Virus record (IMG/VR): IMGVR_UViG_3300007512_000092
Span: 1 to 38,472 of that record
Origin: a virus
DNA length: 38,472 nt
Strand: one strand, 5' to 3'
Of this stretch, positions 9,144 to 36,350 are shown in pieces; within the stretch, counting starts at the first letter, position 1, and each line of letters opens with the position of its first letter. Below the pieces are notes generated by a model, which had not been told where the DNA came from, did not search any database, and saw only the letters and a list, made by a program, of their open reading frames with translations. Both the position numbers and the translations under genes were made by a program.

Positions 9144-10142
9144 ATGAGTTATGTTGACCAGAAGTACATAAATCTATGTACATCAAGGGTCGAGAGGTTC
9201 AAAAAAGTCAGAGACAATCTTTGGAACTTTCGATGTCCAATATGTGGAGATTCCCACAAGAAAAAAGATAAAGCTAGAGGATACATTTACAAGAAGAAGA
9301 ACTCCTTCTTCTATAAGTGTCATAATTGTGGTGCAGGCCACACGTTCAATAACTTCCTCAAATCCCTAGATCCAATGCTTCATGCAGAGTATCTAGTTGA
9401 GAAGTATAAGAACAATGAAACTCAGAGGAACACTCCGATTCCAGATAAGGTTCCTTTCAAATTTGAGAAGCCTAAGTTTCAAGATCCGTTGAACAAGCTT
9501 CATAGGTTTGATAAGATTCAAGACCATCCTGCTTTTGCATATATAGAACACAGGAAAATTCCTGAGAAACATTGGGATAAACTGTATCTCGCAGATAAAT
9601 TCTACGAGTGGTCTAAGACAATGTTTCCTGAGAAATTTCAAAGTATAAATATAGATTATCCACGACTCGTTATTCCCTTCTTTGACAAGTCTGGAAAAAT
9701 GTTCGCTTACCAAGGTCGGGCCTTCGGTAAGGAACAACCAAGATATATCACCTTAAAATTAGAAGAAAACAAAGAGAAGATCTATGGCCTTGACAGAGTT
9801 GATTTCGATTCTCATGTCTATATTGTTGAAGGTCCATTAGATTCTCTCTTCATAGATAACTGTTTGGCAGTTGCTGGTGCCGATTTGGATCTTGTTAATT
9901 CTGAGCCTAGTATTACTACGGCAATATACGATAACGAACCAAGGAATCATCAGACAGTAGATCGAATGTTCAAATCAGTCGATAAGGGATATAATGTTGT
10001 AGTATGGCCAAGTGATTTGGATCATAAAGATATTAACGACATGGTTCTTGCAGGATACCATGATATAGAAGGTTTTGTCCGAACCCGAACCTTTAGTGGA
10101 CTGCAAGCTTACCTAGAGATTAACGAATGGAAAAGGACATGA
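9144..10142 (+). CDS. 61: DNA primase, gp61-like
   Basis: 332 residues. An N-terminal zinc ribbon (C31, C34, C59, C62 in CPICGDS and CHNCGAG) precedes a Toprim-type catalytic region: VYIVEGPLDSL around 225-235 supplies the conserved glutamate and DxD-like acids, with TAIYDNEPRNH downstream. This layout is that of T4 gp61 and DnaG-type primases that lay RNA primers for lagging-strand synthesis with the gp41 helicase; no helicase gene is in the window. Its 3' end overlaps nrdJ by 16 nt. Confidence 0.88.
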   Translation: MSYVDQKYINLCTSRVERFKKVRDNLWNFRCPICGDSHKKKDKARGYIYKKKNSFFYKCHNCGAGHTFNNFLKSLDPMLHAEYLVEKYKNNETQRNTPIPDKVPFKFEKPKFQDPLNKLHRFDKIQDHPAFAYIEHRKIPEKHWDKLYLADKFYEWSKTMFPEKFQSINIDYPRLVIPFFDKSGKMFAYQGRAFGKEQPRYITLKLEENKEKIYGLDRVDFDSHVYIVEGPLDSLFIDNCLAVAGADLDLVNSEPSITTAIYDNEPRNHQTVDRMFKSVDKGYNVVVWPSDLDHKDINDMVLAGYHDIEGFVRTRTFSGLQAYLEINEWKRT

Positions 10143-12097
10143 ACTTACCTACAGAGTACCAATCATTTATACACCTATCAAGATACGCACGATGGGATTA
10201 CACCAAGACTCGTAGAGAAACTTGGGAAGAGACAGTAGACAGATATTTTAATTTTTTCAAAGAACATTTAAAAGAATATTGTGATTATGAGGTAAAAGAT
10301 AAAGAAATAAAGGAAATAAGGGAAGCAGTAGTAAATTTAGATATTATGCCGAGTATGCGATGTTTAATGACAGCTGGAGAGGCACTTAAACGAGAAAATG
10401 TTGCAGGGTATAATTGCTCTTATGTGAAAGTGGACTCTCCTAGATCATTTGATGAAATATTATACATATTAATGAATGGTACAGGTGTAGGATTTTCAGT
10501 TGAAGAAGAATATGTAAATAAATTACCAGTAGTTGCAGAGGATTTTTATGATACCGAAACAACTATTGTTGTCAGAGATTCCAAATTAGGATGGGCAAAG
10601 GCTCTCAAGGAACTCTATGGGATGTTGTGGATGGGTCAAGTTCCATCATGGGACACATCCAAAGTTAGACCAGCAGGATCTCCCCTCAAAACTTTCGGTG
10701 GTCGGGCATCGGGTCCAGAACCACTAGAAGATCTATTCAAATTTTCAGTAAATATTTTCAGAAATGCAGCCGGAAGAAAACTCAAATCGGTGGAAGCCCA
10801 TGACTTGGTTTGCAAAATCGCAGAGATTGTCGTGGTCGGTGGCGTCAGGCGTTCTGCTCTTATCAGCCTTAGTAACTTGGGGGATCGGGAAATGCGATAC
10901 GCCAAGTCTGGAAACTGGTGGGAGACAAATGTGCAACGAGCACTCGCCAATAACTCAGTCAACTATAAAGAAAAACCAGATGTTGGAACTTTCATGCGAG
11001 AGTGGCTCTCCCTTTATGATTCCAAATCGGGTGAAAGAGGTATTTACAATAGTATGTCTGCCAAACGGACAACAGAAAGATTAAATCAAAAAAAGGACAA
11101 AGATGGCAACAACATTATTCGCCGTGATGCCAGGGACGATTTCGGCACAAATCCTTGCAGTGAAATCATTCTTCGATCCAGAGAGTTCTGCAACCTTACA
11201 GAATGCGTTATCAGAGGATGGGACGATTCTAAATCTCTTAAAAAGAAAGTCAGACTTGCAACTATCCTTGGAACCTGGCAGTCAACCCTCACTAATTTCA
11301 AATACCTCACAGGAGAGTGGAAACGAAATTGTAGCGATGAGCGATTGCTTGGAGTCAGCCTCACAGGAATCATGGATAATCCCGATACAAACGGAAGTAA
11401 TTCAGGATTGGATGGACGATTACGAGAGTTAAAAGATGAGTGTATCAAAACGAACAAGGAATGGTCAGATAGATTAGGAATCCCACAATCAGCAGCTATT
11501 ACTTGCGTTAAACCCTCTGGGACAGTTTCACAACTTGTCGATAGTGCTTCTGGAATTCATGCACGACACAATCCATACTATATAAGGACAGTGAGAGGAG
11601 ATAATAAAGATCCTCTCACTAAGTTCATGAAGGATGCTGGTTTTCCAAATGAACCAGATATAACTAAACCAAACCATACTACAGTATTTTCCTTTCCTAT
11701 GAAGTCTCCTAGTGAGGCTATATGTAGGACAGATATGACTGCATTGGAGCAACTTGAACTATGGAAAGTGTATGCTCAGAATTGGTGTGAACATAAACCC
11801 TCAGTGACAATTTCTGTCAAAGAAGATGAATGGGTGAGTACAGCATCATGGGTATACGAAAATTTTGACGAAATCAGTGGGATTTCATTTTTACCCTTTA
11901 GTGATCATACTTACAAACAAGCTCCGTATCAAGACTGTACGGAGAAAGAGTATGAAGAAACACTAAACCAAATGCCAAAAAATGTAGATTGGAATAAACT
12001 TTCTGATTACGAACAGAAAGATTTCACTGTAGCGTCACAAGAACTTGCTTGTTCAGCTGGTCAATGTGAAGTGGTTGATCTACCAATAGCGGCATGA
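10127..12097 (+). CDS. nrdJ: Adenosylcobalamin-dependent (class II) ribonucleotide reductase
   Basis: 656 residues, close to the monomeric Lactobacillus-type ribonucleoside-triphosphate reductase. TNPCSEI at 341-347 supplies the thiyl-radical cysteine (C344) and catalytic glutamate (E346); C97 (YNCSY) and C355 (EFCNLTE) are placed as the active-site redox pair; the C-terminal ACSAGQC tail fits the shuttle cysteines. It converts ribonucleotides to deoxyribonucleotides using B12, without oxygen or iron, and is common in ocean phages. The ATG at 10127 is used; an alternative in-frame ATG lies 12 nt on. Its stop overlaps a zinc-ribbon miniprotein start (ATGA). Confidence 0.92.
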   Translation: MEKDMNLPTEYQSFIHLSRYARWDYTKTRRETWEETVDRYFNFFKEHLKEYCDYEVKDKEIKEIREAVVNLDIMPSMRCLMTAGEALKRENVAGYNCSYVKVDSPRSFDEILYILMNGTGVGFSVEEEYVNKLPVVAEDFYDTETTIVVRDSKLGWAKALKELYGMLWMGQVPSWDTSKVRPAGSPLKTFGGRASGPEPLEDLFKFSVNIFRNAAGRKLKSVEAHDLVCKIAEIVVVGGVRRSALISLSNLGDREMRYAKSGNWWETNVQRALANNSVNYKEKPDVGTFMREWLSLYDSKSGERGIYNSMSAKRTTERLNQKKDKDGNNIIRRDARDDFGTNPCSEIILRSREFCNLTECVIRGWDDSKSLKKKVRLATILGTWQSTLTNFKYLTGEWKRNCSDERLLGVSLTGIMDNPDTNGSNSGLDGRLRELKDECIKTNKEWSDRLGIPQSAAITCVKPSGTVSQLVDSASGIHARHNPYYIRTVRGDNKDPLTKFMKDAGFPNEPDITKPNHTTVFSFPMKSPSEAICRTDMTALEQLELWKVYAQNWCEHKPSVTISVKEDEWVSTASWVYENFDEISGISFLPFSDHTYKQAPYQDCTEKEYEETLNQMPKNVDWNKLSDYEQKDFTVASQELACSAGQCEVVDLPIAA

Positions 12098-13286: not shown

Positions 13287-14456
13287 ATGGAAACAACTTA
13301 TATTTTCAATACCTTCCTGCTTTTATTTTCAGGAGTATTAGTCTTCTTCATGGCCGCAGGGTTTTCCATGTTAGAAGCAGGAATGGTAAGAACAAAAAAT
13401 ACAGTCTCTATTCTAACAAAGAATATTAGTCTGTACTCAATCAGTTGTCTGGCATTCTTTGTGTCGGGTTATTTTCTGATGTATGGATTGATCTCTGATG
13501 GGGATCATTCAGGTGCATCGGATTTCTTTTTTCAAGTAGTCTTTGTTGCAACAGCAGCTTCAATCATTTCAGGAACAATCGCAGAACGAATGAAGTTCTG
13601 GCCATTTATGATTTTCGTGGCCATACTTGCAGGAGTTATCTATCCAGTTCAAGGGTCTTGGACATGGGGTGGTGGTTTTCTATCTGAGATGGGATTCTCT
13701 GATTTCGCAGGGTCTACAATTGTTCATTCAGTTGGTGGATGGGCCGCACTTGCAGGGATAATACTTCTGGGTGCAAGAACAGGTAAATATGGTAAAGATG
13801 GTAAAGCAAATCTCATTGCACCATCAAACCTACCACTTGCAACTCTGGGAACTTTCGTTCTCTGGTTTGGGTGGTTTGGTTTTAATGGTGGATCTCAACT
13901 CGCAATGGGAACCAAAGCTGATGTAAACGCAATCGCAAACGTGATCCTCAATACAAATATGGCTGCGTGTGCAGGGGTTGTAATTACCATTCTCATGACA
14001 CAGTTACTTTATAAAAAAGTTGATCTTACTTTAGTTTTGAATGGGGCACTTGCAGGGTTGGTATCAATAACTGCTGGTCCCGATTATCCTACAATCACAA
14101 CTGCAATCGTAATTGGTGCAATTGGTGGAATATTGTGTACACTTGCAATTCCTTTATTTGACAAGGTGAAGATAGATGATCCAGTAGGGGCTTTATCAGT
14201 TCATCTTGTAGCAGGGGTTTGGGGTACTCTAGCAGTAGGAATTTTTGGTGATGCATCCTTATTAACACAAATTATGGGAGTATTGATAATTGGTGCATTT
14301 ACTTTTATTTCAAGTTTTATAGTCTGGAAGACAATCCAGTTCGTAGTTGGATTAAGAGTATCCTTGGAAGATGAAACACAGGGAATAGATCTTTCAGAAT
14401 TTGGATTAACTGCATACAGTATGAATCATAAAGATACGGAGTTAAGTACAATTTAA
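13287..14456 (+). CDS. amt: Ammonium transporter
   Basis: 389 residues with about eleven hydrophobic segments, near the normal size of AmtB. Functional residues are in place: D139 in SDFAGSTIVH, the twin pore histidines H147 (IVHSVGG) and H306 (LSVHLVAG), and the SGTIAER loop. Such channels move ammonium/ammonia across the inner membrane. A TGGAGG site precedes the ATG. No glnK regulator is adjacent. An auxiliary gene of this kind would raise nitrogen uptake of the infected cell; codon use does not stand out from neighbouring phage genes. Next to it is the phosphate-transporter-like gene. Confidence 0.92.
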   Translation: METTYIFNTFLLLFSGVLVFFMAAGFSMLEAGMVRTKNTVSILTKNISLYSISCLAFFVSGYFLMYGLISDGDHSGASDFFFQVVFVATAASIISGTIAERMKFWPFMIFVAILAGVIYPVQGSWTWGGGFLSEMGFSDFAGSTIVHSVGGWAALAGIILLGARTGKYGKDGKANLIAPSNLPLATLGTFVLWFGWFGFNGGSQLAMGTKADVNAIANVILNTNMAACAGVVITILMTQLLYKKVDLTLVLNGALAGLVSITAGPDYPTITTAIVIGAIGGILCTLAIPLFDKVKIDDPVGALSVHLVAGVWGTLAVGIFGDASLLTQIMGVLIIGAFTFISSFIVWKTIQFVVGLRVSLEDETQGIDLSEFGLTAYSMNHKDTELSTI

Positions 14457-21384: not shown

Positions 21385-21827
21385 CCACTATAACAAAAAT
21401 ATTCATTATTGGTGTGTCGTTGGCATTCTTTGGGTGTACACCTAATTTAGAACAAACGACACTACCAAAACCTACAGATAATGCATCCATTGAAGAAGTT
21501 ACCTTACAAGTTCCAGAGATAGAACCTTGGCCAGATAACATGGTAGAGTTTCATAAAGCAATGTATTTTGTTACTTTTGCAATGAAACCAGAATTGAGAA
21601 TGAGATTTCAACCTATAAATTTATATAATGTTGCAAGTTGTATTATAGAAGTATTAAAGGTACAGTATACTTATGAGCAATATATGAAAAGATTTTCAGG
21701 GCCTAACGCAAATAATCCAGATGTAATACAAGAGATATATGGAATCTCTTTTAAATGTTCTGCCGAAGAAACTGATGCGATGAGATTAAAAATGCTTAAT
21801 ACAATAGAACCAGAAAATGCGATTTAA
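21381..21827 (+). CDS. Predicted lipoprotein, possibly paralogous to the next gene
   Basis: 148 residues with a signal peptide and lipobox (SLAFFGC, Cys near residue 19), so it should be lipid-anchored in the periplasm or outer membrane. Two more cysteines, in VASCIIEVL and GISFKC, lie about 41 residues apart and probably form a disulfide. The same C-aliphatic..C layout occurs in the next exported protein. Possible roles are superinfection exclusion or host envelope modification; not determinable. Overlaps the nuclease gene by 4 nt and the next gene by 11 nt. Confidence 0.7.
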   Translation: MTTITKIFIIGVSLAFFGCTPNLEQTTLPKPTDNASIEEVTLQVPEIEPWPDNMVEFHKAMYFVTFAMKPELRMRFQPINLYNVASCIIEVLKVQYTYEQYMKRFSGPNANNPDVIQEIYGISFKCSAEETDAMRLKMLNTIEPENAI

Positions 21828-22185
21828 ATTATTAAAAATTTGGTTATGTCTTGCATTAATAGCTTGGGGTTGGAACCACGTTAATGCCCATCCAGACGGA
21901 ACTAAACCTTACTGGTATCCATCAACCTATCTTTATGGATTTATTCAGGGATGTTGGGAAACTGTAGAACAGAACCAAACTCTCTCAGCTGGTATGTGGC
22001 CTGATGATATACGAACAGTTTGTGGATGTGTAATAGATGCAGTCAGACACGCAATGCCGTTTCATGAAGCAGAGAGTCCAAATCCAGAAATAAAAGCGAA
22101 GTTTGATTTTATTACTAGTGGGGTTTTACCTCAATGTATAATGGAAACTGAGACTAATATAAAGATGAAAAAAGGTGAAAAATAA
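21817..22185 (+). CDS. Exported cysteine-containing hypothetical protein
   Basis: 122 residues with a signal peptide (MRFKLLKIWLCLALIAWGW..VNA, cleavage before HPDG). Cysteines at QGCWE, TVCGCVID and LPQC suggest disulfides in the periplasm. From CGCVIDAV to LPQC the layout is like that of the upstream lipoprotein, and the two may be tandem duplicates. A consensus promoter for the tmRNA begins 3 nt after its stop. Confidence 0.7.
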   Translation: MRFKLLKIWLCLALIAWGWNHVNAHPDGTKPYWYPSTYLYGFIQGCWETVEQNQTLSAGMWPDDIRTVCGCVIDAVRHAMPFHEAESPNPEIKAKFDFITSGVLPQCIMETETNIKMKKGEK

Positions 22186-22187
22186 AC

Positions 22188-22216
22188 TTGACATTTGTGA
22201 AATAGTGTTATATAAT
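22188..22216 (+). promoter_or_regulatory. Perfect-consensus host-type promoter for the tmRNA
   Basis: TTGACA (22188-22193), exactly 17 nt, TATAAT (22211-22216). Expected start near 22223, immediately before the first tmRNA helix strand at 22228. Confidence 0.85.
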
Positions 22217-22221
22217 AAATA

Positions 22222-22510
22222 CATATTGAGTCAATGATACAGTTTATATAACTTTTAAGACATGGGTGCAATTCCCATCGGCTCCACCAATTTACCTTGA
22301 AAATCCGAAGCAGAGGTTCAAATATGCAAGGTTATTTGTTGGGGCCGCAATAGAGTTCGATTGGGAGTGAAGGAACTGAGGAGATTCAAAAACCATAATC
22401 GCAAATAACAACGATTATACATCCGCTTCTTACGCACTAGCTGCCTAAGAGCCGAGTTCAGTCTGAACGACTTGGGGAGTGACTTGGGAACAGAACGACT
22501 CCCCCCTAAC
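22222..22510 (+). ncRNA. ssrA: Circularly permuted (two-piece type) tmRNA
   Basis: The 3' half comes first: T arm ATGGG/CCCAT (22262-22278), acceptor strand CGGCTCC and ACCA (22279-22289). After a roughly 50-nt intervening segment comes the 5' half: GGGGCCG (22341-22347), which pairs with CGGCTCC and includes the G3.U70 wobble that marks alanine charging, then TTCGATTGGG. The tag frame starts at GCA 22401 (context TAATC-GCA) and encodes ANNNDYTSASYALAA, stop at 22446-22448. Cross-piece pairs GAACTG/CAGTTT (22373-22378/22240-22245) and GATTC/GAGTC (22383-22387/22228-22232) fit helix P2. GGGGAGT/ACTCCCC (22474-22480/22498-22504) may end the transcript. The RNA rescues stalled ribosomes and tags their products for proteolysis; the phage copy would add its own tag. 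Confidence 0.92.
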
Positions 22511-22526
22511 CTTTAACAAATTTATT

Positions 22527-22751
22527 ATGGAATTATCATTTTTGACGCCCACCAAATTTAGTACTTTAATCGAAGAAATGGTGCAAGAGAAACATCTTTC
22601 CTACATGGATGCTTGTTTAGAATATTGCAAAGACAATAATGTAGAACCAGAGTCCTTGGGAAGATTAGTAAATAAAGCACTCAAACAAAAGATTCAAGTA
22701 GAAGCTGAAAATCTTAATTTCTTACAAAAATCTAGTTCATTACCACTATGA
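22527..22751 (+). CDS. 33: Late-promoter transcription accessory protein, gp33-like
   Basis: 74 residues from the ATG at 22527; an in-frame GTG further upstream (22479) lies inside the tmRNA and is rejected. FSTLIEEMVQEKHLSYMDACLEYC and the end VEAENLNFLQK match the short gp33 family of marine T4-like phages. gp33 bridges RNA polymerase and the sliding clamp at TATAAATA promoters, which are present in this window. It is followed by the 59 homologue with a 4-nt overlap, as in the T4 order 33-59-32. Confidence 0.8.
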   Translation: MELSFLTPTKFSTLIEEMVQEKHLSYMDACLEYCKDNNVEPESLGRLVNKALKQKIQVEAENLNFLQKSSSLPL

Positions 22752-23359
22752 CAGACGCCTACGATGCATACAAGATGTATCTAGGACTGAGACTGCATTT
22801 CAACAATGGTTCGTATGATTATTACAAATATAATGGTGCAGTTAATTGTTCTAAAGAATCGTTTATGCGAAGGAGTGACCGATATTTTTTTCATAAAATT
22901 GGTAAAAAATATAATGGTGAGCTCGAACCTTTTCTGGTTTCTAACTTTGTATCTGGCGATTCGGTTAATCCAAAATGGCTAACTAGTGATAAAGCACTGG
23001 AAAATTATAATAAGTGGAAGAAAAACCAACAATCCATTACAAGAGTTTTTGACCAAGATTTGAAGAAATGTCTTGACATTTTCGATTCTTTTGGTATAAT
23101 GTTTATATCAGAATCAAAATTTAAACATCCTCCGATTGTGAAGATGATTGATTCTGGTAAATTGAATATTGAGTCAGCTGTCATATTAGATCACTTTCTC
23201 AATTGGATAGATTATGTAGAACGTGAAGTAGACGATCAGTGGATTTGGCCACGGATTCGTGATATGCTTCGCAAATGTCAACCTTTCATTAAGTTCAATG
23301 AGACAAAATGCAAGGAAGTACTAAAAAACAGGGTGGAAAGCGTACTTCAGAAGATCTGA
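22748..23359 (+). CDS. 59: Replicative helicase loader, gp59-like
   Basis: 203 residues. The start TDAYDAYKMYLGLRLHFNNG..YDYYKYNG and the later FLNWIDYVEREVDDQWIWPRI are typical of gp59, a mainly helical protein that loads the gp41 helicase on forked DNA coated with gp32. Position between gp33 and gp32 supports this. Inside the gene lies a near-consensus promoter sequence (23073-23100). Its 3' end overlaps a small coiled-coil gene by 52 nt. Confidence 0.85.
   Translation: MTDAYDAYKMYLGLRLHFNNGSYDYYKYNGAVNCSKESFMRRSDRYFFHKIGKKYNGELEPFLVSNFVSGDSVNPKWLTSDKALENYNKWKKNQQSITRVFDQDLKKCLDIFDSFGIMFISESKFKHPPIVKMIDSGKLNIESAVILDHFLNWIDYVEREVDDQWIWPRIRDMLRKCQPFIKFNETKCKEVLKNRVESVLQKI
23073..23100 (+). 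promoter_or_regulatory. Possible internal host-type promoter in gene 59
   Basis: TTGACA (23073-23078), 16-nt spacer, TATAAT (23095-23100), both hexamers perfect, inside gene 59. It could feed the coiled-coil gene and thyX. As it lies in coding sequence it may be chance. Confidence 0.4.
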
Positions 23360-25568: not shown

Positions 25569-28304
25569 TTATCCTTGCTTCGTAGCTTGAACTGCGGCGC
25601 TCTCATCTTTACTGAACAGTCGCATGGCGACTCCGCCTCCGCCGCCTCCATAAAAGTTTTGTGGGGCACTTACAACTGCGGCTGTTCCTTTAAAAGCTTC
25701 TTGTTGTTCTTTATCCAATGTTTTAAGTTTGGTTGCTAATATCTGTTCCCAATCAGCTTGACCTTCTTTAGAAGAGATTCCTCTTCTATCTTCAACCATT
25801 TTGAGTTTGGTTGCTAATTTGGCGAGTGCTGTTGTATCCATACCCCCCATCATACTTTTGAGTTTTTCTGCATCAATTATAAACTCATCTTTATCTTTAT
25901 TCAAAGCACCTAAACCAAGACCAGCTAGATTCTTACGAGCTGCAACTTGTCCCTCTTTCATTGCCTTTTCATCTTTATCCACATCACCCAATGAGTCAGG
26001 TAATAGTTTATCTATTAATGCATGAGCTCCTCTTTGTAAATCATCTGCAAAAGTAAATTCTTTAAAACCATCAAATCCTAGTCGTTGAACAAATTTATTA
26101 ACTTTTTTAACAGCCCAATTAAGAATGTTTTGAATCATCATTGCCAGATCAATGACAAAGAAATCAACTAAAGATTTTATTGCGCCTTTCATTCCATCCA
26201 TTATTTTCTCACCAAAGGTTCTCGTATCATCTTCATTCTTCTCTTTAAATCCATCCCAAAATCCTGAGATAGCTTCAAAGATTGCCATGATCCAACCAAT
26301 AGGTGCAAAGAATCTACCAATCCATGAAGCACCAGCAGCTCCAACTTTAATTATACCAGCAAAGAATTTTTTAATACCTTGAATTATAGGATTATTAGCC
26401 ACAGCTGTCACAAATCCTTTAACTTTACCAATAATGTCTCCAAAGAAATCAAAGAAACCATTGATTCCTTTACCAGCTGCATCTGCACCAGTAGCAAACC
26501 ATCCACTAAATGTTTTTACCCATCCACTAAGAGTTCCTATAAATTTACTAATAGCACTTTCTTTTCCAAATAGAGAACCAAACCATGTAAATAATTTTCT
26601 AATTTCTCCACCTTCATCAAACCAACCAAATCCCATATTTTTCATTGCAATAAGGGCCTGACCTATTTTACCAGTAGGACCAAATAAATTTCTAAGCCAA
26701 TTTCCTAATTTAACAAGATCGTGTTTATCATTCCACCAATCCTCTGCATCTTTCACTAACAAAAATGCACCAGCTATTTTACCACTAGGACCAAAGATTC
26801 CTTTTATAAAAGTCCATATTTTTCTAAAATCTCCAGCCTCATCAAACCATGTTATTTCTGTAGGTAAAGCTTTATACATTTGAGCTATTTTTCCACCAGC
26901 ACCAAATATATCTTTTATCCACTTCCAAGACTTTCTCATATCTCCAGCATCATCAAACATAATAACATCACCAAGACCATCTATCCATTTTCTGAATAGT
27001 CCAAGTTTTCCATCTGGACCAAATATATCAGTAATTTTTTTCCATGCTTGTCGTATATCTCCACCATCATCAAACCATTGTTTTCTGGCCCATTCGGAAA
27101 CTACAGTAAATAAACCATTTAATTTTCCAGCAGGGCCAAATATCTTTTTGATTTCTTTCCAAACTTGTGTTAGATGTCCTGTATCACCAAACATTGTGGT
27201 TTTAGTCCAATCTGTAACAGTAGTTATAAAAGTAGCAATTTTACCTCCTGTTCCAAATAACTTTTTGATTTCATCCCAAAGTAATACAAGAGTTGAAGTA
27301 GTAACTCCGAATAATCCTTTTCCTAACCATTCTGTTACTTTAGCAGTTAATAGAGCTATTGTTTTTCCTGCACCAAATATTTTCGTGATTTCTTTCCAAA
27401 GTAAAGCAAGAGTGCTAGTAGTAATATTAAATAATCCTTTTCCTACCCATTCTGTTACTGTTGTAGTTAATTTAACTATAGAACCACCTAAACCAAATAT
27501 CTTCTTAATTTGATTCCAAAGTAATGAAAGAGTACCAGTGGTTATATTAAACAATTTTTTTCCTGCCCATGCAGTTACTTCTACCAAGAGTAATGCAATA
27601 GATCCTGTGGCGACTGCAAATATTTTACCCAAAGCGGCCATTAATTTAACTATTGGTGAAGTGGTTTTTCCTAACCATTCAAGAGCTTTCCATTCTATAG
27701 CTAATGCACCTAAAGCTGCAAGAGAATCAAAGATTGCTTTATTATCATTATAAAAGTTAGTAAATGTGGTTTTAAATTCCTCCCATTTTTCTTTTATTTT
27801 TGGACCCCATTCGTTCCACCATGCTTCCCAATCCTGTGATGCTAACCATTCCAATAAGAGTGCAAGACCTATAAGAACACCACCTTTCATAAGAAGACCT
27901 AAGAGATCTCCTGCAAACTTTTTAGTCTTATCTGCCATTGCCTTCATATATTTTGAAGGATCAATTTTACTTGCATCTCGTAACGCAGCTTTCGCTGCTC
28001 TTCGTGCATCATCTAAAGCCATGACCGCAATACCCTTCATATCACCTAAAATTTTAGTAAAAGTGACGGCTTGAGTATTAGCTTGTTTTGTATTCTTGGA
28101 TATTTCTTCTGATTCGTCAGCTGATTTTCCAGAAACTCCTAATAAATCTTGTAATAATGCATTATTTTCAAAATTAAATTTTTTGGAATGTTCAAGACCA
28201 GCCTCTTCTCCTGCTTTAGAATCGGCAAGGATAGCAGTAATTTTTTGTAATTCACCTAACTGGCCAGTTGACGTAGATTCGGTTGCTAGTGGTTGTTCAG
28301 CCAT
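25569..28304 (-). CDS. Tape-measure-like baseplate hub protein (gp29-like) with tandem repeats
   Basis: 911 residues. A helical N-terminus (1-130), a hydrophobic segment near 132-155, then at about 228-590 roughly nine imperfect repeats of 37-41 residues, each with the pattern W-K-x-I-K-x-I-F-G-x-x-G-K-I. After that come hydrophobic and amphipathic helices and a glycine run (GGGGGG) near the C-terminus. Length, helicity, hydrophobic patches and position after gp26 and gp51-like genes fit a tail-length tape measure; T4 gp29 is shorter (590). Overlaps the gp51-like gene by 8 nt. Confidence 0.7.
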   Translation of the reverse strand: MAEQPLATESTSTGQLGELQKITAILADSKAGEEAGLEHSKKFNFENNALLQDLLGVSGKSADESEEISKNTKQANTQAVTFTKILGDMKGIAVMALDDARRAAKAALRDASKIDPSKYMKAMADKTKKFAGDLLGLLMKGGVLIGLALLLEWLASQDWEAWWNEWGPKIKEKWEEFKTTFTNFYNDNKAIFDSLAALGALAIEWKALEWLGKTTSPIVKLMAALGKIFAVATGSIALLLVEVTAWAGKKLFNITTGTLSLLWNQIKKIFGLGGSIVKLTTTVTEWVGKGLFNITTSTLALLWKEITKIFGAGKTIALLTAKVTEWLGKGLFGVTTSTLVLLWDEIKKLFGTGGKIATFITTVTDWTKTTMFGDTGHLTQVWKEIKKIFGPAGKLNGLFTVVSEWARKQWFDDGGDIRQAWKKITDIFGPDGKLGLFRKWIDGLGDVIMFDDAGDMRKSWKWIKDIFGAGGKIAQMYKALPTEITWFDEAGDFRKIWTFIKGIFGPSGKIAGAFLLVKDAEDWWNDKHDLVKLGNWLRNLFGPTGKIGQALIAMKNMGFGWFDEGGEIRKLFTWFGSLFGKESAISKFIGTLSGWVKTFSGWFATGADAAGKGINGFFDFFGDIIGKVKGFVTAVANNPIIQGIKKFFAGIIKVGAAGASWIGRFFAPIGWIMAIFEAISGFWDGFKEKNEDDTRTFGEKIMDGMKGAIKSLVDFFVIDLAMMIQNILNWAVKKVNKFVQRLGFDGFKEFTFADDLQRGAHALIDKLLPDSLGDVDKDEKAMKEGQVAARKNLAGLGLGALNKDKDEFIIDAEKLKSMMGGMDTTALAKLATKLKMVEDRRGISSKEGQADWEQILATKLKTLDKEQQEAFKGTAAVVSAPQNFYGGGGGGVAMRLFSKDESAAVQATKQG

Positions 28305-34978: not shown

Positions 34979-35146
34979 ATGAAAGCGAGATTAAAACAGA
35001 AACGAGTTTTTCAACATCAATCACGCACAACTATCCCAGATGAAGTTTATGATGATTATAAATATCATTATAAACAAGATTATACTGTAATCAATGAAGA
35101 CATTTCTACAACTCCGAGAGGGGATTTACGATCCAAATATATTTAA
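34979..35146 (+). CDS. Possible small basic protein overlapping the kinase gene
   Basis: 55 residues (MKARLKQKRVFQHQSRTTIP..) with a good AGGAG 8 nt upstream. It overlaps the next gene by 53 nt in another frame and contains the late-promoter sequence at 35057, so it could be a true gene with an embedded promoter or a fortuitous frame. Confidence 0.45.
   Translation: MKARLKQKRVFQHQSRTTIPDEVYDDYKYHYKQDYTVINEDISTTPRGDLRSKYI
35057..35064 (+). promoter_or_regulatory. T4-type late promoter
   Basis: Exact TATAAATA 30 nt before the kinase ATG at 35094. Confidence 0.5.
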
Positions 35147-35831
35147 AGCTGTCTTTCTTGCAGGGGGTCCAGGCTCGGGTAAATCCTTTGTAGTAGGTAA
35201 AACCCTTGGAGGTTTGGGCCTCACAATAATTAATTCCGATGAACCTTTTGAGAGGTATCTCAAGTTAGCTGGTCTTTCTATGAGAATGCCAGATGAAGAA
35301 CAAATACCAAGAGACATAGAACGCAAACGTGCAAAGAAAGTCACTGCGGCTCGTAAGGGTCATGCACTAGATGGTCGATTAGGTATTGTCATTGATGGTA
35401 CTGGAAAAGATTATGCAAAACTTGCAAAACAAGCAAATCAATTGAAAGAACTTGGATATGAAGTGTCTATGGTATTTGTGAACACATCACTAGAAACTGC
35501 ACTCTCACGAAATGAAAAACGTGCGAGGAAAGTCCCACCAAGAATAGCCGAAAAGGGTTGGAAAGATGTTCAGGCAAACCTTGGAAGATTTCAACAATAT
35601 TTTGGTCCAGATAAATTCTTTATTGTGGATAATAATGATGACCAAGAAGATCTCATGCAGATAAGTTCTAAACTTATTGCAAGAGCGGTCAGAAAAGCGG
35701 TGAACAATCCGATATCAAAAGCTTGGATTGCAAAAGAAATGGAAAAGAAAAAGATGTCAATTCCATCAAATCTCGATAAGTATCAAGGACGAAATGTTGG
35801 TGCAGGGGGTGGTGGATATGTTAAGAAATGA
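35094..35831 (+). CDS. P-loop kinase (zeta-toxin/AAA_33-like) with capsid-targeting-like N-terminus
   Basis: 245 residues. Walker A GGPGSGKS at 24-31, INSDEPF near 45 and IVIDGTGKD near 99 match small-molecule or polynucleotide kinases of the zeta-toxin/AAA_33 group. The lid region is arginine-rich (RNEKRARKVPPR). The substrate is unknown; candidates are nucleosides, sugars or nucleic-acid ends. The N-terminus MKTFLQLREG fits the capsid-targeting-like pattern with a LRE cleavage site. A late promoter lies 30 nt upstream. Confidence 0.8.
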   Translation: MKTFLQLREGIYDPNIFKAVFLAGGPGSGKSFVVGKTLGGLGLTIINSDEPFERYLKLAGLSMRMPDEEQIPRDIERKRAKKVTAARKGHALDGRLGIVIDGTGKDYAKLAKQANQLKELGYEVSMVFVNTSLETALSRNEKRARKVPPRIAEKGWKDVQANLGRFQQYFGPDKFFIVDNNDDQEDLMQISSKLIARAVRKAVNNPISKAWIAKEMEKKKMSIPSNLDKYQGRNVGAGGGGYVKK

Positions 35832-35832
35832 C

Positions 35833-35861
35833 TTGACATTTGAGATTTTTTAATATATAAT
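35833..35861 (+). promoter_or_regulatory. Perfect-consensus host-type promoter, leaderless gene
   Basis: TTGACA (35833-35838), 17 nt, TATAAT (35856-35861). The next ATG (35869) starts 7 nt after the -10 box, at the expected transcription start. Confidence 0.8.
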
Positions 35862-36107: not shown

Positions 36108-36350
36108 TAGAATTTAATTGCAGTTAGGTGACGGCCTAACTGTAGGGATGTGCGTTGAATAACATCTTCGTCCACTGATGTAAAACGGCGTGTCACAGGT
36201 GGAGCTGAGGCCACCCTTCTGGTAACAGTAAGGGAGTCACATCACTCAATCCAGAGTGGGACACGGCAGGGAGGGAACAAATGCTACTGGAGTGAGCACC
36301 CCGAACTTGTAGGTAATCCAGAATCCTACCATCCCCCGAACACTTTTTCC
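36108..36350 (+). ncRNA. Candidate structured ncRNA, family unknown
   Basis: Stems seen: CAGTTAGG/CCTAACTG (36121-36128/36135-36142, 8 bp, extended by a G.T pair); long-range GGGATG/CATCCC (36145-36150/36330-36335); CGTGTC/GACACG (36189-36194/36260-36265); GGTGG/CCACC (36198-36202/36211-36215); CTTCTG-GTAA-CAG-T-AAG (36216-36232) with a GNRA loop; GTAGG/CCTAC (36310-36314/36325-36329). A T-run follows at 36343. It is not RNase P, 4.5S or a group I intron by any motif I can see. Confidence 0.5.

Follow-up and report, generated by a model that had tools for sequence, protein, structure and literature searches.

A permuted two-piece tmRNA gene in a T4-like virus fragment and probable small protein genes in the spacer of its relatives

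Results

The window, i.e., the whole stretch of 38,472 bases analysed here, is a virus fragment with T4-like genes (gp32-like, tail-tube, baseplate, and tail proteins). At 22222-22510 (plus strand) it carries a complete gene for a phage-encoded, circularly permuted two-piece tmRNA with its own tag, as claimed in an earlier note on this DNA and as ARAGORN and Rfam concur. In related phages, the spacer discarded between the two RNA halves at the same locus constitutes a conserved coding slot, i.e., a protein gene nested in a functional RNA gene, and it is likely that in many phages with a two-piece tmRNA, the cultured phage Melnitz included, this excised spacer is dedicated to a translated small protein. 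The earlier note had the permuted alpha-type tmRNA, the tag, the promoter, and the absence of smpB from the fragment right; it missed the published precedent and the variable, sometimes coding spacer.

tmRNA gene of the window

ARAGORN calls a permuted tmRNA (tmRNA*) at 22197-22539, with the tag ANNNDYTSASYALAA* and a coding part at 22401-22448. In the comparison with Rfam models that the earlier note had suggested, tmRNA_permuted (RF04321) reaches 90.4 bits at 22240-22448 (E 2.6e-16, cut-off 47) and alpha_tmRNA (RF01849) 70.8 bits at 22184-22505 (curated cut-off 50), while the cyano-type (RF01851, 56.8 bits, curated cut-off 70) and beta-type (RF01850, 33.4 bits, curated cut-off 84) models stay below their cut-offs for the window gene. 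The acceptor half with its CCA is encoded before the tag half, as in alpha-type tmRNAs; this order, the G-U pair of the acceptor stem, the intact resume codon, and the ALAA end of the tag had all been read from the letters before and are retained here, the order also being recovered by ARAGORN and Rfam.

The 3' (acceptor) piece, encoded first, extends over 22224-22289 (+; ARAGORN, Rfam, cofold, covariation), with 22224 as the presumable exact position of its mature 5' end. It comprises P2 strands (22240-22245 and 22251-22258), the T arm (22262-22278), the acceptor 3' strand CGGCTCC (22279-22285), the discriminator A (22286), and CCA (22287-22289), all on the plus strand. The 5' (mRNA-like) piece at 22341-22510 (+; ARAGORN, Rfam, cofold) begins with the acceptor 5' strand GGGGCCG (22341-22347, +), followed by a D-like loop and the P2 strands (22361-22368 and 22373-22378, +). 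The tag reading frame (22401-22448, +; ARAGORN) opens with the resume codon GCA (22401-22403), encodes ANNNDYTSASYALAA, and, by direct reading, closes with ALAA and the stop codon TAA, whereupon a terminal hairpin (22474-22504, +; GGGGAGU/ACUCCCC), backed by covarying arms and RF01849, encloses the alpha-type motif UGGGAACAGAA. The seven-pair acceptor stem joins the halves and contains G22343-U22283, corresponding to G3-U70 of alanine tRNAs. In the cofold, the halves are predicted to pair both along the acceptor stem and in two stretches of P2, and processing in the cell presumably splits the RNA in two. The tag is unlike those of all 46 alphaproteobacterial tmRNAs read, a comparison across the class rather than with the phage's own host.

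Promoter and neighbouring genes

The gene is preceded by a sigma-70-type promoter, TTGACA-17-TATAAT (22188-22216, +), which matches the consensus at 12 of 12 bases and is thus as perfect as the earlier note had it. Three such perfect sites exist in the window against 0.10 expected, a number reached in none of 100 shuffles, and the TTGACA box is retained in most close relatives. Another perfect promoter is situated at 35833-35861, after a gene for a zeta-toxin-like or AAA kinase-like protein (35094-35831; PF06414, 4.6e-14) just 3' of the tail genes.

Directly upstream of the promoter lies the gene of a 122-aa protein (21817-22185, +), syntenic in relatives. No more than about 20 nt beyond the tmRNA, a gene for a gp33-like late-transcription coactivator of 74 aa begins (22527-22751, +; Pfam Trans_coact PF16805, 3.9e-23; phrog_254), followed by a gp59-like helicase loader (22748-23359, +; phrog_269, 2.8e-50; tblastn matches to Mosig, HTVC008M, and cyanophages). 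The order 122-aa gene, tmRNA, gp33, gp59 is common to close relatives; compared to cultured phages by blastn, the window locus yielded no match. No match to SmpB was found anywhere in this virus fragment of 38,472 bases, in agreement with the earlier reading.

Further away, the window encodes a ribonucleotide reductase (10127-12097) with its best match, at 64% identity, in Puniceispirillum phage HMO-2011, where the enzyme is annotated as adenosylcobalamin-dependent; the affinity of this copy differs from that of the surrounding T4-like genes. Neither the reductase nor gp59, compared by similarity, pointed decisively to a host. A phage-encoded ammonium transporter (13287-14456; PF00909, 1.4e-100), a manA RNA motif (36122-36339; 78.1 bits, cut-off 55.2), and a 911-aa protein on the minus strand (25569-28304) that matches neither Pfam nor PHROGs were also recorded.

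Covariation and a near-twin contig

The covariation alignment comprised 12 distinct sequences of relatives, with the spacer omitted, and 26 pairs. Standard pairs occupy 97.4% of the pair cells, a value attained by 0 of 500 shuffles. Two-sided changes occur at six pairs, with compensatory changes in the acceptor stem, the T arm, and P2 (matched by 0 of 500 shuffles), and the signal is lost when the partner is shifted by one to three columns. The acceptor stem is intact in all 12 sequences except for one pair in contig L002. Both arms of the terminal hairpin change jointly in relatives while the motif UGGgAACAGAA remains constant, and nearly all relatives have an open tag frame with the end ALAA, AIAA, AMAA, or similar.

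L002 is a near-twin of the window, with gp33 and gp59 100% identical, and yet its tmRNA is rejected by ARAGORN: three clustered substitutions in the 5' half (2238-2260) break an acceptor pair and alter the D-loop. The tmRNA of L002 is a pseudogene or an assembly error; these changes may reflect weak selection on the gene there or errors of the contig.

Spacer of the window and of its relatives

The spacer of the window's copy, the segment from CCA to GGGG expected to be excised (22290-22340, +), measures 51 nt and is predicted to form a hairpin, the ends of which (ACCUUG/CAAGGU) would pair and prolong the acceptor stem; a U occupies position -1, preceding the mature 5' end. No small ORF with start codon, ribosome-binding site, and stop is present in or just past this spacer, and the reading as a coding slot therefore rests on the relatives. 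In these, with gp33 78-100% identical, the distance from CCA to the mature 5' end amounts to 24, 26, 51 (window), 107-108, or 173 nt.

In other phages, the spacer often encodes a putative small protein, either a peptide of 23-32 residues with a single membrane helix or a basic peptide. The 108-nt spacer is laid out as ribosome-binding site, ATG, MDGHHIFLTFVIFGSAAIFIWVMEAVLL, TGA, one base, and GGGG. A scan for long spacers, which demanded TGGGG and 80-110 nt, yielded together with the loci already in the set at least 119 unique spacers; among the matches listed, 24 of 119 contain an ORF that starts with ATG, spans 20 or more codons, and has both a membrane-helix-like stretch and a ribosome-binding site, a fraction that is not to be read as a prevalence. 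Under the same criteria, dinucleotide shuffles (n=200) gave 0.055 on average and never more than 1, and reverse complements gave 0. A protein search with two membrane-peptide families found 66 loci, 62 of them demonstrably inside a tmRNA spacer. Concerning the other four, two (L365, L366) exhibit TCCACCA just upstream as elsewhere but failed the acceptor test, and two (L419, L421) have an incomplete match close to the locus end; no clear free-standing copy of a peptide was therefore seen.

Pairwise pN/pS, calculated from pairs that are not independent, is 0.24 for the MDG peptides (10 ORFs) and a modest 0.51 for the MEK peptides (30 ORFs); in both, protein-level conservation is matched by 0 of 1000 column shuffles. 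Judged from their codons, the membrane peptides are under purifying selection. In Melnitz and its relatives, the spacer is filled by basic peptides (MFK...PKYL), the frame of which overlaps the tag half by 42 nt; its first 35 codons have a pN/pS of 0.31, and an in-frame addition of 24 nt occurs in some members. A third kind is a basic ORF of 53 aa in the 173-nt spacer, identical in three contigs from different samples (L018, L021, L040). In L004, L008, L009, and L012 the peptide frame begins with ATA instead of ATG, and the peptide may therefore be dead or poorly translated there.

The TGA that immediately precedes the mature 5' end was not taken by itself as evidence for coding, since non-coding phage spacers often have TGAT|GGGG as well. 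ARAGORN found no tRNA gene in 121 long phage spacers among the matches listed. The peptides tried against Pfam and PHROGs matched no family, and two membrane peptides compared to cultured phages by tblastn had no match, a search in which the low-complexity filter of BLAST can hide hydrophobic peptides. An earlier description of an ORF in a tmRNA spacer was not found in the open-licence literature; a report elsewhere is possible.

In a tree of gp33-gp59, several forks of which are weakly supported, the window is situated near L018, which has the 53-aa ORF, and near L005 and L012, which have MDG peptides; MDG peptides are also found in the outgroup. The simplest reading is that the window's hairpin probably arose by loss or replacement of an ORF, and recombination is a possible source of this ORF-less spacer.

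Masking of the peptide start

Whether an ORF is present or not, the ends of the phage spacers are predicted to pair with each other and to prolong the acceptor stem. For 12 representatives with membrane peptides, the calculated duplex with the own partner averages -13.5 kcal/mol, a mean attained in none of 1000 permutations, versus -6.6 with swapped partners. In most representatives, the last codons pair, within the modelled closing stem, with the start codon, with the ribosome-binding site, or with both, and this stem is predicted to mask the start site of the peptide.

Discussion

It is highly likely that the window encodes a working two-piece tmRNA of the alpha type that is made early, cut by host enzymes, and used with host SmpB. 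Early transcription from the host-type promoter would give a single precursor with the acceptor half before the tag half. The halves would fold via the acceptor stem and P2, with the spacer hairpin prolonging the former, and host RNase P and 3'-processing enzymes would excise the spacer, so that two base-paired pieces remain. Given SmpB and alanyl-tRNA synthetase from the host, this RNA would release ribosomes stuck on broken mRNA and append the tag, the ALAA end of which would fit proteolysis of the ClpXP type by the host; compatibility with the SmpB and proteases of the host is assumed. The benefit to the phage would most simply consist in keeping ribosomes free during the degradation of host mRNA. 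At the same locus of other phages, the spacer slot could in addition accommodate a gene for a small protein, its start being masked.

A role chiefly as a decoy, in which the phage RNA would titrate SmpB or keep the host rescue system busy and the tag would matter little, appears improbable. An isolated tmRNA-like domain similar to the one in mycobacteriophage DS6A does inhibit tmRNA, perhaps by titration of SmpB (PMC4131195); however, a decoy would need neither the tag region nor the terminal hairpin, both of which are conserved, and the tag frame is open in nearly all relatives, with ends similar to ALAA, AIAA, or AMAA. Still less probable is a decaying passenger gene, acquired from a host and retained by chance. 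The broken acceptor pair and altered D-loop of the near-twin L002 would fit such decay, as would the patchy occurrence of tmRNA among related phages (PMC9004378), whereas the compensatory changes in 12 sequences, the conserved promoter and synteny, and the open tag frames argue against it. That the gene is a mis-called tRNA or folds like a tRNA by chance, for which nothing more than the AT-rich sequence speaks, is refuted by the covariation and has a negligible probability given also the E-value of 2.6e-16, the complete anatomy, and the annotated relatives.

As the peptide start would be masked by the stem that joins the tmRNA halves, translation of the peptide would compete with tmRNA maturation; we regard this competition as a rather doubtful hypothesis, under which many free ribosomes would favour the peptide and few the tmRNA. 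A nested gene with its start hidden in this stem would link ribosome rescue to the synthesis of a small phage protein. Because the cultured phage Melnitz carries a spacer ORF, it offers a direct experimental handle; an experimental account of the function of a phage two-piece tmRNA was not found in the open-licence literature. The annotated Melnitz record (MZ577097) contains the tmRNA and no protein gene across the spacer interval, which suggests that annotation can hide such nested genes.

Comparison with known systems

A two-piece tmRNA beside the late-transcription coactivator has already been published for Melnitz, and the arrangement for the marine T4-like phages Melnitz and Mosig (PMC9004378); the window copy alone is therefore a further case of a known type. 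In the same study, 53 phage tmRNAs have a two-piece structure, most of them belonging to phages of marine or aquatic origin; as roles, it is proposed that they either keep the hijacked machinery running or tag host proteins (PMC9004378). Permuted tmRNAs were also noticed in HTVC008M (KC465899; L035, about 1125-1500; tag ANFNEYALAA), where the gene is absent from the annotated features of the region, and in Xanthomonas phage Rb1 and Acinetobacter phage BUCT628, where it is not listed in the annotated regions fetched.

The organization in the window is similar to that of Melnitz (Methylophilales phage EXVC044M), likewise a T4-like marine phage with a permuted alpha-type tmRNA (RF01849, 106.7 bits), a sigma-70-like promoter, and the order tmRNA-gp33-gp59, with the tmRNA directly upstream of gp33. 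There are some differences: the Melnitz tag is ANDNYVPVDYALAA, its spacer measures 142 nt and contains the unannotated ORF MFKWLSKTRLVV..., and a glutamine riboswitch (L422, 1466-1514; 52.8 bits) is situated between tmRNA and gp33, whereas none was found in the window at 22150-22600 up to E 10. Since this riboswitch lies 3' of the tmRNA and 5' of gp33, gp33 is a likelier target than the tmRNA, its stated target. In Pelagibacter phage Mosig (EXVC030M; SsrA, MT647606), the tmRNA is also directly upstream of a gp33-like gene and the spacer is a short hairpin (44 nt) as in the window, but the tag is GEDNFALAA and thyX is inserted between gp33 and gp59.

With the tmRNAs of alphaproteobacterial hosts (RF01849), the window copy shares the permuted form, G3-U70, and the motif UGG.AACAGAA, whereas in the host genes the T arm, CCGGGGGC[AG]GTACCCGG, hardly varies and most tags are of the form ANDN... 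Their spacers are 9-48 nt long in 43 of 46, and on inspection none of the 46 contains a small ORF. Inserts in permuted tmRNA spacers are known, namely one tRNA-Ala and one repeat (PMC11915505), and as in the phage loci the spacer tolerates insertion there; unlike those inserts, a tRNA gene and a repeat, the phage spacers can carry conserved small proteins, and it is this variable, sometimes coding spacer that makes the locus family unusual.
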